Origin: an uncultured Pelagibacteraceae bacterium
GTDB taxonomy: Bacteria; Pseudomonadota; Alphaproteobacteria; Pelagibacterales; Pelagibacteraceae
Length of the DNA: 64,000 bases
Reading direction: 5' to 3'
Assembly: GCA_902604795.1 (NCBI GenBank)
Contig: CACKZV010000002.1
Coordinates: 94,061-158,060, forward strand
This document shows, piece after piece, positions 12,410 to 52,382 of the stretch; positions within the stretch are counted from its first letter, which is position 1; every line of letters starts with the position of its first letter. A program made the position numbers and the translations under genes. The notes below the pieces were generated by a model. That model saw nothing but the letters and a program-made list of their open reading frames with translations, did no database searches and was not told the origin of the DNA.

Positions 12410-12748
12410 TTAGACTATTCTGTCAATTTTTGCAGCAAGCACAAAATCACTTTCATGTAATCCGTTAATAGCATGTGTTTGTATTTTTATTTTTGCATAT
12501 CCCCAACCAAATAATATGTCAGGATGGTGGCCTTCTTGCTCAGCAATTTCTCCAACATTATTTACAAAAGATTGACTATCTAAAAAATTATCAAATTTAA
12601 AATTTTTAATAATATAATAATTTTTTTTATTCTCAGACTCTACATCCCATCCATCTACTTTTTTAAGGTATTTATGAATCTCCTCTAAATTAAAACTTGG
12701 TATACCACCTTCACACGGAATACACTTTTTTTCAGCTAAATCACTCAT
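12410..12748 (-). CDS. 4a-hydroxytetrahydrobiopterin dehydratase (PCD/DCoH)
   Basis: QEGHHPDILFGWGYAKIKIQTHAINGLHESDFVLAAKID motif. Confidence 0.93.
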   Translation of the reverse strand: MSDLAEKKCIPCEGGIPSFNLEEIHKYLKKVDGWDVESENKKNYYIIKNFKFDNFLDSQSFVNNVGEIAEQEGHHPDILFGWGYAKIKIQTHAINGLHESDFVLAAKIDRIV

Positions 12749-13584
12749 TAGTCATATCCTAAATCATTTAAATCACTTTGCAAAGAGTTATTTATTTTAA
12801 TTAAAATATTTTTTGGTAAAATTTTTTGCCATCTATTACCAAATCCTAAATTGAAAAAACGTTTTTTTTCTCCAGTCCTTGAGAACACGCTTTCCTCAAA
12901 GCCTTCATTTTGTTCTTTGTTTCTTAAGTTAGAGAAATTTGTAGAAGATATTGAGTTTAAGAGTTTTTTTTCATTAATCGAAGTTTTTTCTTTTTTCAAA
13001 TTGCTTATAAAATTAATTATTTTTTTAAAAGTATCAAATTTATTATTTTCTAAATCTTCGTATTTTATAAATAATGTTTTAAATTCATTTGTATTTTTCC
13101 ATGACTTATAGTGACTCGACCAAGATCCTAAAAAAGTAAAATTACTATAATCACCATCTGTTGATTTTTCTAGAAGTGTTTGTTTTTCATTCATTAATTT
13201 TATATATGATTGCTCATAACTTAATGAATAATGATGCGTCATAGATGTTATTAAATTTCTAGGATCTCTAATAATGTATATAGCACCTAATGTTAAATTT
13301 TTGTTAGTAAAATAACTATCTTTATACTGATTAAGTGAGCTATGGGTTTTAATAAAATGTATTTTATCTCCAGAAAAGAATTGTTGTTGATTATATATCC
13401 AATTTTGACTGGCTTCTATTTCTGAATTAATTTTATTTTTTGTAAATTTGATTGAGGGAAACTGGAGGATATTATAAAGAAGATCAAAATCAAACTTTCC
13501 TTTTTTTGAAAAAAAATAAGAAGCAATAAAAGATCTTAAATATGTATTTCCACTTTTAGGATAAGAAGCAATCCAAATAATCAT
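12748..13584 (-). CDS. Sulfotransferase domain protein
   Basis: MIIWIASYPKSGNTYLRS (5'-PSB) and IRDPRNLITSMTHHY (3'-PB). Start trimmed to M at 13584 because the ORF-track extension translates the tRNA. Confidence 0.88.
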   Translation of the reverse strand: MIIWIASYPKSGNTYLRSFIASYFFSKKGKFDFDLLYNILQFPSIKFTKNKINSEIEASQNWIYNQQQFFSGDKIHFIKTHSSLNQYKDSYFTNKNLTLGAIYIIRDPRNLITSMTHHYSLSYEQSYIKLMNEKQTLLEKSTDGDYSNFTFLGSWSSHYKSWKNTNEFKTLFIKYEDLENNKFDTFKKIINFISNLKKEKTSINEKKLLNSISSTNFSNLRNKEQNEGFEESVFSRTGEKKRFFNLGFGNRWQKILPKNILIKINNSLQSDLNDLGYD

Positions 13585-13589
13585 AATTA

Positions 13590-13664
13590 TGGAGCGGGCA
13601 ATGGGACTCGAACCCACGACCTTCTCGTTGGCAACGAGACGCTCTACCACTGAGCTATGCCCGC
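13590..13664 (-). tRNA. tRNA-Gly (GCC), CCA encoded
   Basis: Minus strand GCGGGCATAGCTCAGTGGTAGAGCGTCTCGTTGCCAACGAGAAGGTCGTGGGTTCGAGTCCCATTGCCCGCTCCA: complete cloverleaf, GCC anticodon, GGTTCGAGTCC T-arm. Confidence 0.97.
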
Positions 13665-34804: not shown

Positions 34805-35385
34805 TTTTGAAGTTCTAAATATTCCTTAATTTTTTTAATAGGTAAGCCCATTATCGTGTCTTCATCACCATCAATTTTTGAAAATAAAGCCCTTCCTTCT
34901 CCTTCAATTTGATAGACATTATAAGCATACAGAGCCTCATCGCTTATTTTATTTAAATAAGTGATTAATTCATTTTCAGAAAAATGCTTCATGGTTAAGT
35001 AAGCTTTATCAGTATAGTTCCAAACCATGGATCCATTTTTAGATATACAAACCGAACTGATCAAAGAGTGTCTTTTTCCATTTAGATTCTTCAAAATACT
35101 TAAAGCTTCTTCCCTACTCTCTGGTTTTGATATTAACTCCCCTCTCAGATCAATCACACTATCTGCTCCTAAAACTAAAGTATTATTAACTTTTTGACTT
35201 ACCTTATTTGCTTTCAATTCTGCAAGATTTTTAGAGATAATTTCAGGTGAAGCACCCTCTTTTAATAGACTTTCTTTTATTGGTTCTTCGTCAATATTTG
35301 ATATTTCAACCCTATTATTAATATTGTGATTATCTAAAATTTCTTTTCTTACCTTACTTTTAGAAGCTAAAATAATGTTAGGCAT
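34801..35385 (-). CDS. maf: Maf-like nucleotide pyrophosphatase
   Basis: IILASKSKVRKEIL, VLGADSVIDL, LKNLNGKRHSLISSV, YQIEGEG. Confidence 0.93.
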   Translation of the reverse strand: MPNIILASKSKVRKEILDNHNINNRVEISNIDEEPIKESLLKEGASPEIISKNLAELKANKVSQKVNNTLVLGADSVIDLRGELISKPESREEALSILKNLNGKRHSLISSVCISKNGSMVWNYTDKAYLTMKHFSENELITYLNKISDEALYAYNVYQIEGEGRALFSKIDGDEDTIMGLPIKKIKEYLELQK

Positions 35386-36205
35386 TTTTTTTATTTTTTA
35401 TTTCGTAAATTTTAATTACAGATGCTGCTGTTTCTTCAACTGACTTTCTAGTCACGTCTATTGTGGGCCAGTTGTTCTCTTTAAATATCTTTTTAGAACT
35501 ATCTAATTCATCCCTAATTTTGTCTATGTTTACGTACTCACTATTTTGATCTTCTTTAAGAGAATTCAATCTGTTTTTTCTTAAATCATATAGTCTATCA
35601 GCCTCAGTTACTAAACCTACAACACAGGGAGAAAAATTTTTTTCTGTAACTTTTGGTGGAATAGAGTTTTTGTTTACTAATGGAATATTTGAAGTTTTAA
35701 AACCTCTATTAGCTAAATAAATTGCTGTTGGAGTTTTACTTGTCCTGCTTACTCCTAACAGAATGATATCAGATTTTTCTATATCATCAGTCTGATTACC
35801 ATCATCATGATTCATAGTAAACTGAATAGCTTCAATTCTATCGTAGTATTCTTCATTAAGAATGTGTTGACCGCTTGGTTGATGCGAAGCTTTTTGATTG
35901 AGCACTTTTGAAAAATTTAATATTAAATCTCCAAGGACACCAAAACACGGTATTTCTCTTTCATAAGCCTTTTCTGTAAGATACTTTGCAAGTTTACTGT
36001 TCACTATTGTATATAAAATTATAGAATTTTTATCTTTCTTCGCTTGTTTTAGAATACTTAAGGTTTGACTTTCGGTACGGGTAAAAGAAAAATGATTAGT
36101 TTCATATTCAAAATTAGGAAATTGTGCCTTTAATGCCAAAAAAATTCTATCTAATGTCTCACCAGTAGAATCCGATATTAAGTAAATTTGATATAAGTTT
36201 CTCAT
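35378..36205 (-). CDS. Pyruvate,phosphate dikinase/PEP synthase regulatory kinase-phosphorylase (DUF299)
   Basis: LISDSTGETLDRI, LGVSRTSKTPTAIYLANRGFKTSNIPLV, TRKSVEETAASVI. Confidence 0.94.
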   Translation of the reverse strand: MRNLYQIYLISDSTGETLDRIFLALKAQFPNFEYETNHFSFTRTESQTLSILKQAKKDKNSIILYTIVNSKLAKYLTEKAYEREIPCFGVLGDLILNFSKVLNQKASHQPSGQHILNEEYYDRIEAIQFTMNHDDGNQTDDIEKSDIILLGVSRTSKTPTAIYLANRGFKTSNIPLVNKNSIPPKVTEKNFSPCVVGLVTEADRLYDLRKNRLNSLKEDQNSEYVNIDKIRDELDSSKKIFKENNWPTIDVTRKSVEETAASVIKIYEIKNKKNA

Positions 36206-36489
36206 GTATAAAGTGTTTATAAACTATTAGTTAAATAAGAAAAATGCAGATTTATGCTTTGAAGACATAGAACTTATTTTTTTTCCTATAAAATTAAGTG
36301 AATTATAAAATGTGATAATAGTTATCCAAAATGTGTATAAAATCTGAATATTGTTAATTTATTCATATAAATTCTTATTAATTTAAGATCAAAATTGTTG
36401 ATAATAAGTTAATTAATTGTGTAAATTGACTAATTTACGTTATTCACAATACATAATACTAATAAAGTAAATAATATATATCTATCTAT
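36206..36489. other. oriC: Candidate chromosomal replication origin (oriC)
   Basis: Longest intergenic gap noticed in the window, directly upstream of hemE; DnaA-box-like 9-mers TTATACACA (36332-36340, minus), TTATTCACA (36440-36448, plus), TTATCCAAA (36322-36330, plus), ATTTACACA (36418-36426, minus); AT-only tract before hemE. Confidence 0.7.
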
Positions 36490-37491
36490 ATGAGTCCCAT
36501 AAGCAACTGTATTAAAAATAAAGATACTAAATCAAATCCTATATGGTTGATGAGACAAGCAGGAAGATATCTTCCAGAGTTTCGAGATATTAGAAAAAAA
36601 AACCAAGATTTTATCAAACTTTGTCTAAATAGTGATTTGGCATCAGAAATTACTCTTCAACCCATTAAAAGGTTTGGATTTGATGGAGCTGTAATATTTT
36701 CAGATATTTTAATTTTGCCCTATGGACTTGGTCAAAATGTAAAATTTGAAAAAAATTTTGGACCTAAATTAGGAAACATAGATCTAGAAAAAATAAAAAA
36801 CATCGATGAAGTAAATTTTACTGAAAAAGTTTATACAGTCTATAAAGCAATCTCAAAAACATCAAAAGACCCCTTAATGAAGAAAAGGGATATGATTGGA
36901 TTTGTCGGAGCTCCGTGGACCATTCTTGTTTATATGATTAATAAATCTTCTCCTAAAAAAGGTTTATCAAATGAATTTTTTAAAGATGATTTTTTAATTA
37001 ATAGACTTCTAGGAATTATAGAAAAATTTTTAAAACTTCATATAAAAAATCAAATTGAAGCAGGAGCTCAAGTCATTCAAATCTTCGATAGTTGGGCTGG
37101 ATTATTGGAAGATAAAATTCCAGAATATATTTATATACCAACCCTTAACATTGTTGAATATATAAAAAAACTAGGAGTTCCTGTTATTTGTTTTCCCAGA
37201 GGTATAAAAGATTACAAAAATTTTTGTGAAATTGTTAAACCCGATGCTGTAAACATAGATTATGATGTTGACCCAAGGAAAATAGTCAATGAAATCAAAA
37301 TACCAATACAAGGCGGCCTTGACCCAAAAATATTATTAGCTGATCAAAAAACTCTCAAAATAGAAGTTGAAAAATATCTTGGTATTTTTAAAGATCATCC
37401 ATACATTTTTAATTTAGGTCACGGAATACTACCTGAGACTAAAATTGAAATGGTTGAAGAACTAATCAAGATTGTAAGAAATTTTAAATGA
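36490..37491 (+). CDS. hemE: Uroporphyrinogen decarboxylase
   Basis: PIWLMRQAGRYLPEFRDIR, GFVGAPWTILVYM, NLGHGILPET. Confidence 0.97.
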   Translation: MSPISNCIKNKDTKSNPIWLMRQAGRYLPEFRDIRKKNQDFIKLCLNSDLASEITLQPIKRFGFDGAVIFSDILILPYGLGQNVKFEKNFGPKLGNIDLEKIKNIDEVNFTEKVYTVYKAISKTSKDPLMKKRDMIGFVGAPWTILVYMINKSSPKKGLSNEFFKDDFLINRLLGIIEKFLKLHIKNQIEAGAQVIQIFDSWAGLLEDKIPEYIYIPTLNIVEYIKKLGVPVICFPRGIKDYKNFCEIVKPDAVNIDYDVDPRKIVNEIKIPIQGGLDPKILLADQKTLKIEVEKYLGIFKDHPYIFNLGHGILPETKIEMVEELIKIVRNFK

Positions 37492-43425: not shown

Positions 43426-45297
43426 ATGAAAAATGAGTTGTCATTTGATGTAGTTGTAATTGGCGGCGGGCATGCTGGCTGCGAAGCTGCAGCAGCATCT
43501 GCTAGATTGGGAGTAAATACAGCGTTATTTACACATAAATTTGATACTATTGGTGAGATGTCATGTAATCCAGCTATAGGAGGACTAGGCAAAGGCCATC
43601 TTGTTCGAGAAATAGACGCACTAGATGGTGTAATGGGAGAAGTGGCGGATAAATCAGGAATACAATTTCGATTATTAAATAGAAGCAGAGGTCCTGCAGT
43701 GCGTGGACCACGGACACAAAGTGATAGATCATTATATAAGAAATATATGCAAGAAAAACTCTTAAACTATTGTAATTTAAGTATTTTTTCAGATCCTGTA
43801 ATTGCCTTTATTTTTGAAAAAAACAATATAATCGGTTTTGTTACACAAGAAGGAAAAAAAGTACTCTCATCAAAAGTAATTCTAACAACTGGAACTTTTC
43901 TAAATGGTTTAATCCACATTGGTAATGAAAAAACACCTGCAGGGAGATTTAATGAAAAACCTTCAACTGGTTTAAGTGAACAGTTAGAAAAATATAATTT
44001 TAAAATTGGAAGATTAAAAACAGGAACACCACCAAGACTAGATGCAACGACAATTAATTTTGAAAAACTAGAGGAGCAGCACGCAGATGAAGATCCGTAT
44101 TTTTTTTCCTTCCTTACAAAAAAAAATATTAATAAACAAATTTCTTGTAGGATGACTTATACCAACCAAGCAGTGCATGATATCATTACCAAAAATATAA
44201 AAAGTAGTGCTATGTACTCTGGAAGTATTCAGGGAGTTGGTCCGAGATACTGCCCTTCTATAGAAGATAAAATTGTAAAGTTTGCCGATAAACAAAAGCA
44301 TCAAATATTTTTGGAGCCCGAGGGCCTAAATGATAAAACTATATATCCTAACGGAATTTCAACTTCTCTTCCAGCTGACGTACAGCAAGAAATATGTAAC
44401 AATATCAATGGTTTAGAGAATGTAAAGATATTAAGACCTGGATATGCTATAGAATATGATTTTGTGGACCCAAGAGAGCTATTTCTAACATTGGAGACAA
44501 AAAAAATTAGAAATCTTTACCTAGCAGGACAAATAAACGGTACAACTGGTTATGAAGAGGCAGCCGCTCAAGGCTTGATTGCTGGAATTAATGCTTCTCT
44601 TTCTATATTGGGTAAAGAACCATTTATCCTTGATAGATCTGAGGCATATATAGGCGTGATGATAGATGATTTGGTCACAAAAGGAGTTGCTGAGCCTTAT
44701 AGAATGTTTACCTCAAGGGCAGAATATAGGTTATCTTTGAGATCTGATAATGCAGATCTTAGACTTACTCAAAAAGGAATTGATATTGGGCTTATACTTG
44801 ATGAAAGAAAAATAACATATAAAGAAAAAGCTTCTAAACTTGATAAAAGTCTAAAAAAAATGGAAAATTCATTGATTTCTCCATCTAAAGCTACAAAATT
44901 CGGAATAAATATTGCGAAAGATGGCGTTAAAAGAAATGCAATAGAAATATTGAGTCAGAAATCAGTAAAAATGAGTAAAATTAGGGAAATTTGGCCAGAA
45001 ATCAAATATGTTTCACGTGAAATAGATGAGCAAATCGAGATAAAAGCTCATTATAAAGGCTATTTGAAGAAACAAGATGCAGATATATTAGCATTTAAAA
45101 GAGATGAAAATCTTAAAATTCCTGAAAATTTAGATTATGATCAATTCTCAGGGTTATCAAATGAAGTAAAATCAAAATTTAAGGAAATAAAACCAAAAAC
45201 ACTTGGCCAAGCACTTAGAATAGATGGGATTACGCCAGCAGCAGTATATATTTTGTTGTCTCATGTCAAAAGAAAGTCTATTAAGCATATAGCTTGA
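43426..45297 (+). CDS. mnmG: tRNA modification enzyme MnmG (GidA)
   Basis: [48 protein letters not shown]. Confidence 0.98.
45009..45024. promoter_or_regulatory. parS: parS-like site inside mnmG
   Basis: TGTTTCACGTGAAATA, 15/16 match to TGTTTCACGTGAAACA. Confidence 0.85.
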
Positions 45298-45938
45298 TTG
45301 ATTCGAAAATAATAAAAAAAGACAAAATTTACCTTCCAAATGCTTCACGTGAAACATTAAAGGAGCTGGATGAGTACTCACAGTCAATTTTAAAAACAAA
45401 CAAGAAAATTAATTTGATAAGTTCAAGCACTGAAAAGTCAATAAATACAAGACATATTTTTGATAGTGCACAAACCATTGATTTTATTGATAAAAATGAT
45501 ATTCAAGTGTGCACAGATCTTGGCTCAGGTGCAGGTCTTCCTAGCATAGTTTTAGGTATTTTGATGAAATCCAAAAAGCAAGGTTTTAAGCTGATTTTTT
45601 ATGAAAAGAGTTACCACAAAAGTAATTTTCTTAAAGAGATGGTAAAAAAATTTAAATTAGAAGCAAAAATTTATCAAAAAAATATATTTGAAGAGAAAAA
45701 TTTAGTAACTGACGTAATAATTTGTAGAGCATTCAAACCATTACCGGTTATTTTTGAAATAGCGACAAAGAATTTTAAAAATTTCAAATACATAGTTATG
45801 TATCTAGGAAAGAGTGGTAAAAAAAATTTAAAAGATGTTTCTACAAAGTGGAAATTCGATATAGAAGAAATGAAAAGTCTAACAAGTGATCTGTCGTCAG
45901 TAGTAAGAATTTCAAATTTGAAAAAAAAATATGAATAA
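45294..45938 (+). CDS. rsmG: 16S rRNA (guanine-N7) methyltransferase RsmG (GidB)
   Basis: [42 protein letters not shown] start overlapping the mnmG stop (TTGA). Confidence 0.93.
45341..45356. promoter_or_regulatory. parS: parS-like site inside rsmG
   Basis: TGCTTCACGTGAAACA, 15/16 match to TGTTTCACGTGAAACA. Confidence 0.85.
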
Positions 45939-52163: not shown

Positions 52164-52331
52164 AAATGTTCTAAAAACTTAGTAATAGATGAAAAAACAC
52201 TATAGTTAAAAGGATTTTTTTAGTAATGACAAAAATATCAAATAATTCAACATTTTTAGTGATGTAAAATTACAACACTTTTATAAAAAAACTCGAATTG
52301 ATTAACTAAATGTCAGTAAAATAGTTAAAAA

Positions 52332-52363
52332 TTGATACTAGTTTAGCTGTTTAATATTAAACA
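52332..52363 (+). promoter_or_regulatory. Putative housekeeping promoter with overlapping palindrome upstream of the porin
   Basis: TTGATA (52332-52337) N17 TATTAA (52355-52360); 16-bp palindrome TGTTTAATATTAAACA (52348-52363). Confidence 0.55.
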
Positions 52364-52382
52364 ATTAACGAAAGGTAATAAT

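Follow-up and report, generated by a model that had tools for sequence, protein, structure and literature searches.

We identified the intergenic region between the divergent genes ppsR and hemE as, very probably, the chromosomal replication origin (oriC) of this SAR11 bacterium. The window, the 64,000-nucleotide stretch of DNA that was analysed, spans positions 94061 to 158060 of contig C2 in a 29-contig, 1.07-Mb draft genome (G000) that is about 80% complete and whose closest named relatives are uncultured Pelagibacteraceae (SAR11). A sequence-only reading had already proposed a replication origin here, and this proposal is supported by the conservation and phasing of DnaA boxes, by a DnaA-trio, by the GC skew of two complete relatives, and by a parS site nearby. 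The gap is the longest of the 39 ORF-free gaps in the window, for which the median is 39 bp and the runner-up 219 bp, in keeping with the unusual length first remarked upon. The runner-up (52164-52382) is likewise flanked by divergent genes, a DUF3576 gene and a porin-like gene (PF13609), and is without an Rfam match. NCBIfam models confirmed the identity of the two flanking genes, and with it the divergence at the gap, with ppsR on the minus and hemE on the plus strand. They also bore out the neighbours named earlier (dnaQ, coaE, aroE, maf, hemH, rho, mnmE, mnmG, and rsmG), and the best matches of the genes called parA and parB were ParA- and ParB-family models. Two adjacent minus-strand genes with a sulfotransferase domain (PF00685; 40253-41134 and 41115-41969) and without an NCBIfam match lie between rho and mnmE. 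The sole tRNA gene of the window, tRNA-Gly(GCC) at 13590-13664 on the minus strand, overlaps the 5' end of a predicted ORF (12748-13650).

The origin of Caulobacter crescentus (Cori) and that of Rickettsia prowazekii are both located between hemE and a gene of COG1806/DUF299 (PMC1914354). The latter is the family of PpsR, and the gap would thus be the SAR11 version of a known origin type. It shares with Cori the two flanking genes, several DnaA boxes, and an AT-rich stretch (PMC1914354, PMC8959179) but is shorter, at about 280 bp compared to more than 400 bp for the Caulobacter and Rickettsia origins (PMC1914354). The R. prowazekii origin, which we compared by description, also occupies the hemE/COG1806 interval of an AT-rich alphaproteobacterium and differs in being longer. 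Our literature search, which covered open-licence papers, found no SAR11 origin experiment and no paper defining a SAR11 oriC sequence. In a cultured Pelagibacter, methylation was described to fall from origin to terminus (PMC9516812), and an origin was thus assumed in that study. The elements of the gap and its surroundings are as follows.

35378-36205, minus strand: ppsR (DUF299, COG1806), flanking gene; NF003742, E 1.1e-88.
36206-36489, 284 bp: very probable oriC, the whole ppsR-hemE intergenic region, based on gap length, box enrichment, and the GC skew of relatives.
36214-36222, minus strand: DnaA box TTATAAACA, ppsR side; within one mismatch of TTATNMACA in 41 of 48 dereplicated gaps, 28 of them with an exact match.
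36322-36330, plus strand: weak DnaA-like box TTATCCAAA; at most one mismatch in 22 of 48, close relatives often having TTATACATA.
36332-36340, minus strand: TTATACACA, exact consensus, lineage-specific; at most one mismatch in only 5 of 48.
36396-36404, minus strand: DnaA box TTATCAACA, far end (-44) of an 11-bp phased array; at most one mismatch in 37 of 48.
36407-36415 and 36418-36426, minus strand: array positions -33 and -22, degenerate in the window genome; at most one mismatch in 19 and 21 of 48, respectively.
36440-36448, plus strand: hemE-side DnaA box TTATTCACA, putative box of the unwinding module; one mismatch or none in 47 of 48, with exact TTATNCACA in 27.
36449-36489: AT-rich, easily melted stretch past the hemE-side box, including an AT-only run (36468-36481); least stable 41 bp of the gap.
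36453-36464, minus strand: candidate DnaA-trio of four triplets; top strand ATA-ATA-CTA-ATA, bottom strand 3'-TAT-TAT-GAT-TAT-5'.
36490-37491, plus strand: hemE, flanking gene; TIGR01464, E 7.3e-93, above the cut-off.
45009-45024: parS-like TGTTTCACGTGAAATA inside mnmG, one mismatch (contig C2, 139069).
45341-45356: parS-like TGCTTCACGTGAAACA inside rsmG, one mismatch (contig C2, 139401).

The two exact boxes that had been picked out from the sequence, at 36332-36340 and 36440-36448, were found at these coordinates, as were the two weaker ones, at 36322-36330 and at 36418-36426 (ATTTACACA, minus strand). A pair of exact TTATNCACA matches was reached in none of 2000 dinucleotide shuffles of the gap (mean, 0.04), and among the 40 matches in the draft genome this pair is the only one less than 300 bp apart. 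The exact sequence is not enriched across the window (3 seen versus 3.9 expected), and the signal is therefore one of clustering; genome-wide, the 40 matches compare with 57 for a reversed control, again without enrichment. We then compared 48 dereplicated gaps, differing by more than 15% from one another, and scored a box as conserved if it had at most one mismatch to TTATNMACA. Across these gaps, TTATNCACA occurred 39 times versus 1.3 times in shuffles and TTATNMACA 131 times versus 8.9 times, so that DnaA boxes were roughly 15- to 30-fold more frequent than in shuffles, and they stood at fixed positions. The conservation of boxes in orthologous gaps, proposed earlier as a check on the origin reading, thus speaks for an oriC. 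Many of the boxes in relatives read TTATNAACA rather than TTATNCACA.

Conservation also revised the choice of boxes. While the plus-strand box at 36440 of the sequence-only reading held up, the minus-strand box at 36332 did not, and two conserved minus-strand boxes, at 36214 and 36396, had been overlooked. For want of conservation, we dropped TTATACACA at 36332 from the core boxes, to which it probably does not belong. A further, TTATTAACA-like box is present in 28 of the 48 relatives at the position aligned to 36291 on the plus strand and is degenerate in the window genome. When measured from the 36440 box, minus-strand boxes recurred only at offsets of -44, -33, and -22 (in 37, 19, and 21 of the 48 gaps, respectively), the next offset reaching a count of 3. 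With one box per 11 bp, all boxes of this array would lie on one face of the helix. In Escherichia coli, oriC contains arrays of low-affinity boxes in one orientation with an 11-bp pitch, made up of a 9-bp box and a 2-bp spacer; the weak SAR11 boxes share the single orientation and the pitch, and differ in box sequence and flanking genes. The inverted repeat GTAAATT-GACT-AATTTAC, present at 36421-36438 as described, shares bases with the -22 member of the array and with the stretch leading up to the hemE-side box; we credit this 7-bp repeat with no function of its own. The motifs RPRQ and RDHTTV in domain IV of DnaA are important for DnaA box recognition; both are retained in the DnaA of the window genome, which is consistent with ordinary box recognition.

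Past the hemE-side box, the bottom strand reads as a repeated 3'-NAT-5', i.e., the pattern of a DnaA-trio. This element was missing from the earlier picture of the origin, although the oriC inference itself was supported. The DnaA-trio consensus is 3'-GAT-5', and the published search rule asks for three or more 3'-NAN-5' triplets no further than 16 bp past a DnaA box (PMC8287927); by this rule, four triplets are found in the window. In such AT-rich DNA, 59% of shuffles pass this loose rule and we accordingly give it little weight; the case is carried by runs of four 3'-NAT-5' triplets and by column conservation. Runs of at least four were found in 29 of 48 gaps compared to 2% of shuffles. Across the 48 relatives, the third base of the four triplets is A in 46, 48, 48, and 47 and the middle base T in 46, 40, 37, and 44, while the first base varies. 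The basal unwinding system (BUS) of Bacillus subtilis oriC similarly combines a DnaA box with DnaA-trios under the published rule (PMC8287927), but the triplets of the SAR11 genus are mostly 3'-TAT-5' instead of 3'-GAT-5', and its upstream boxes are oppositely oriented in an 11-bp array.

The tract abutting hemE had been described as AT-only. In fact, it is AT-rich with a few C and G, and its longest AT-only run, at 36468-36481, is 14 bp. Of the roughly 64,000 41-bp positions in the window, only 80 are weaker than 36449-36489. Taken as a 284-bp segment, the whole gap has an AT content above the genome average, and only 40 positions of the 64-kb window are less stable.

The divergent ppsR-hemE gap was kept at 261 to 288 bp in 109 of 110 Pelagibacteraceae loci, the remaining locus being cut by a contig end, with HemE identity ranging from 100 down to 56%. 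Conserved blocks occupy both ends of the gap; mean pairwise identity over 36326-36385 (60 bp) is only 0.41. Divergent genes with a conserved block at each end of the gap would also be expected if the gap were merely a shared promoter or regulatory region of ppsR and hemE, where DnaA served as a transcription factor, and if replication started elsewhere. Transcription of hemE out of the Caulobacter origin region is linked to replication (PMC8959179), and a promoter role may therefore coexist with an origin. As the sole function of the gap, however, we consider a promoter very unlikely. A sigma-70-like scan yielded 1 site in the gap versus 4.4 in shuffles, i.e., fewer; a trio with 3-bp periodicity is no promoter feature; the skew minimum of relatives goes with the gap (see below); and the gap outlasts either of its neighbours, its length surviving the loss of ppsR and an origin-like gap surviving the displacement of hemE.

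The loss of ppsR is seen in a sister family (f2). PpsR was not found beside hemE in 20 loci of this family, nor in searches of six whole genomes with the SAR11 protein as the query, an empty result that is weak by itself. Instead, the gene directly opposite hemE is maf, as seen from the ORFs of two loci and from alignment in 20 of 20, and despite the loss of ppsR, the maf-hemE gap measures 262 to 275 bp. It ends in CACAGG or a close variant plus trios; in two loci (L120 and L129) CACAGG is followed by CTACTACTACTA, and some members have a repeated consensus trio, 3'-GAT-5'. The displacement of hemE is seen in G143, a complete genome from another genus of the same family as the window genome. 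Here, the gene opposite ppsR (at 141 kb) is rho, with a gap of 353 bp between the two, and hemE is found about 577 kb from ppsR, at 718 kb, inside a hem operon. This hemE (contig C1, 718091-719053; L249), which has a hemB-like gene upstream and a hemH-like gene downstream (both named by eye), matches the hemE model weakly, with 184 bits against a cut-off of 303. It may be a replaced gene copy, in which case its absence from the origin would be explained. With ppsR lost in one family, hemE displaced in a single genome, and the gap kept in both cases, the origin itself would be separable from its neighbours.

The arrangement extends beyond these families. In a sample of Alphaproteobacteria, hemE was divergent from ppsR at 29 of 30 ppsR loci. 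Runs of at least three C[ACT]A triplets were present on the hemE-directed strand in 19 of these 29 gaps and on the opposite strand in none of them (shuffles: mean, 1.6; maximum, 5), and all but one of the runs lay 55 to 135 bp from hemE. Judged by these sequence patterns, this gap and a DnaA-trio within it are found across the Alphaproteobacteria.

An RNA is transcribed from inside the Caulobacter origin, CcnA (PMC8959179), and by analogy the SAR11 gap might encode a structured or small RNA in place of an origin. We regard this as extremely improbable. Neither an Rfam match, up to an E value of 1, nor a terminator-like site was found in the gap, and conservation sits on the DnaA boxes and the trio, with the 60 bp at 36326-36385 being poorly conserved.

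To place the origin independently of the gap sequence, GC skew was analysed. Because the window genome is split into 29 contigs, we used complete relatives, and because skew mostly tracks gene direction in these genomes, gene strand was fitted as a covariate. The data comprised spaced 12-kb samples of G011 and G143 plus a filled stretch around the G011 origin; TA skew was unusable for placement. A skew minimum elsewhere had been named as a result that would speak against the proposed origin; in both relatives, the origin was instead placed at or near the gap. In G011 (1,343,202 bp, one contig), cumulative skew formed a broad trough at about 1.18 to 1.31 Mb, with a peak near 0.65 Mb and the gap at 1.2621 Mb. 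The strand-corrected optimum for GC3 was at 1.27 Mb, 1 of 500 block permutations was as good, and most bootstrap replicates fell, with coarse resolution, at about 1.15 to 1.35 Mb. All-position GC skew in G011 marginally preferred about 1.185 Mb, so that this genome alone is also compatible with an origin at dnaA, at 1.198 Mb.

In G143 (1,211,322 bp), both measures were best at 140 kb on a 10-kb grid, and a different grid gave 126 to 132 kb; an equally good fit was reached by 0 and 1 of 500 permutations, and the bootstrap range was coarse, at about 66 to 348 kb. The ppsR-rho gap of this genome is at 141.3 to 141.7 kb, dnaA at 69 kb, and hemE at 718 kb. Skew thus follows the gap and not hemE, and dnaA fits less well, the GC3 fit being 43.9 at 140 kb versus 35.7 at 60 kb. 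For the largest contig of G037 (660 kb), the raw minimum was about 30 to 80 kb from hemE and became uninformative after strand correction.

In many other bacteria, the origin lies at dnaA-dnaN, and in G011, G037, and G143 dnaA is within about 65 to 75 kb of the locus. The marginal all-position preference in G011 also speaks for such an origin. The GC3 fits of both complete genomes favour the gap, however, and the four dnaA loci examined lacked a cluster of TTATNMACA, with at most one site each. In addition, the best parS match lies beside hemE and not beside dnaA. Together, these results make an origin at dnaA hardly credible. The best parS match was 7 to 9 kb from hemE in G000, G011, G004, and G037; in the window, the parS-like sites at 45009 and 45341 adjoin parAB. 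The only parS match of G143 lies some 20 kb away from ppsR. G011 has a second, equally good match far off, at 887 kb.

We also searched for the sites of known regulators, and the CtrA, IHF, and GANTC scans yielded none that was clear-cut. Cori contains five CtrA sites and one IHF site, whereas the window gap has neither a full CtrA site (TTAA-N7-TTAA) nor the IHF consensus WATCAANNNNTTR. Some origins of the hemE/COG1806 type are likewise without CtrA sites (PMC1914354). In the relatives, the CtrA motif was counted 34 times in 24 of 48 gaps versus 11.5 times in shuffles, but 11-bp repeats of GTTAATAA alone would create it, and these CtrA-like motifs are therefore inseparable from the 11-bp array. 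The IHF consensus occurred 4 times in the 48 gaps versus 5.1 times in shuffles, a count made with one strict consensus, although IHF binds degenerate sites and the DNA is very AT-rich. GANTC, a methylated motif in Pelagibacter (PMC9516812), is rarer than chance in the gaps of the 48 relatives (3 seen versus 16 expected from shuffles) and absent from the window gap.

Based on sequence conservation and on systems studied experimentally in other bacteria, we infer how DnaA binding, the order of events, and strand opening might proceed at the ppsR-hemE origin. DnaA would bind the strong hemE-side box (36440-36448) and spread toward ppsR over the weaker boxes, one helical turn (11 bp) apart. From the hemE-side box, it would also extend onto the bottom strand of the trio (36453-36464) and stretch that strand, whereupon the AT-rich DNA before hemE may open and allow the helicase to be loaded.

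The SAR11 gap appears to stand apart by its small size, the phased TTATNMACA array, the TAT-rich trio, and the fact that neither a full CtrA site nor an IHF consensus nor GANTC is present in the window gap. These features could describe a minimised alphaproteobacterial origin of about 280 bp, with an 11-bp phased array of degenerate TTATNMACA boxes, a T-rich (3'-TAT-5') trio, few GANTC motifs, and none of the usual CtrA/IHF layer. We put this forward tentatively, as a possibility that falls somewhat short of an even chance; if true, initiation would be controlled differently from that in Caulobacter. SAR11 cells rank among the most numerous in the ocean, and estimates of their growth from metagenomes by peak-to-trough coverage depend on the position of the origin. 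A fixed, alignable origin sequence would provide a direct anchor for such estimates, fragmented genomes included.
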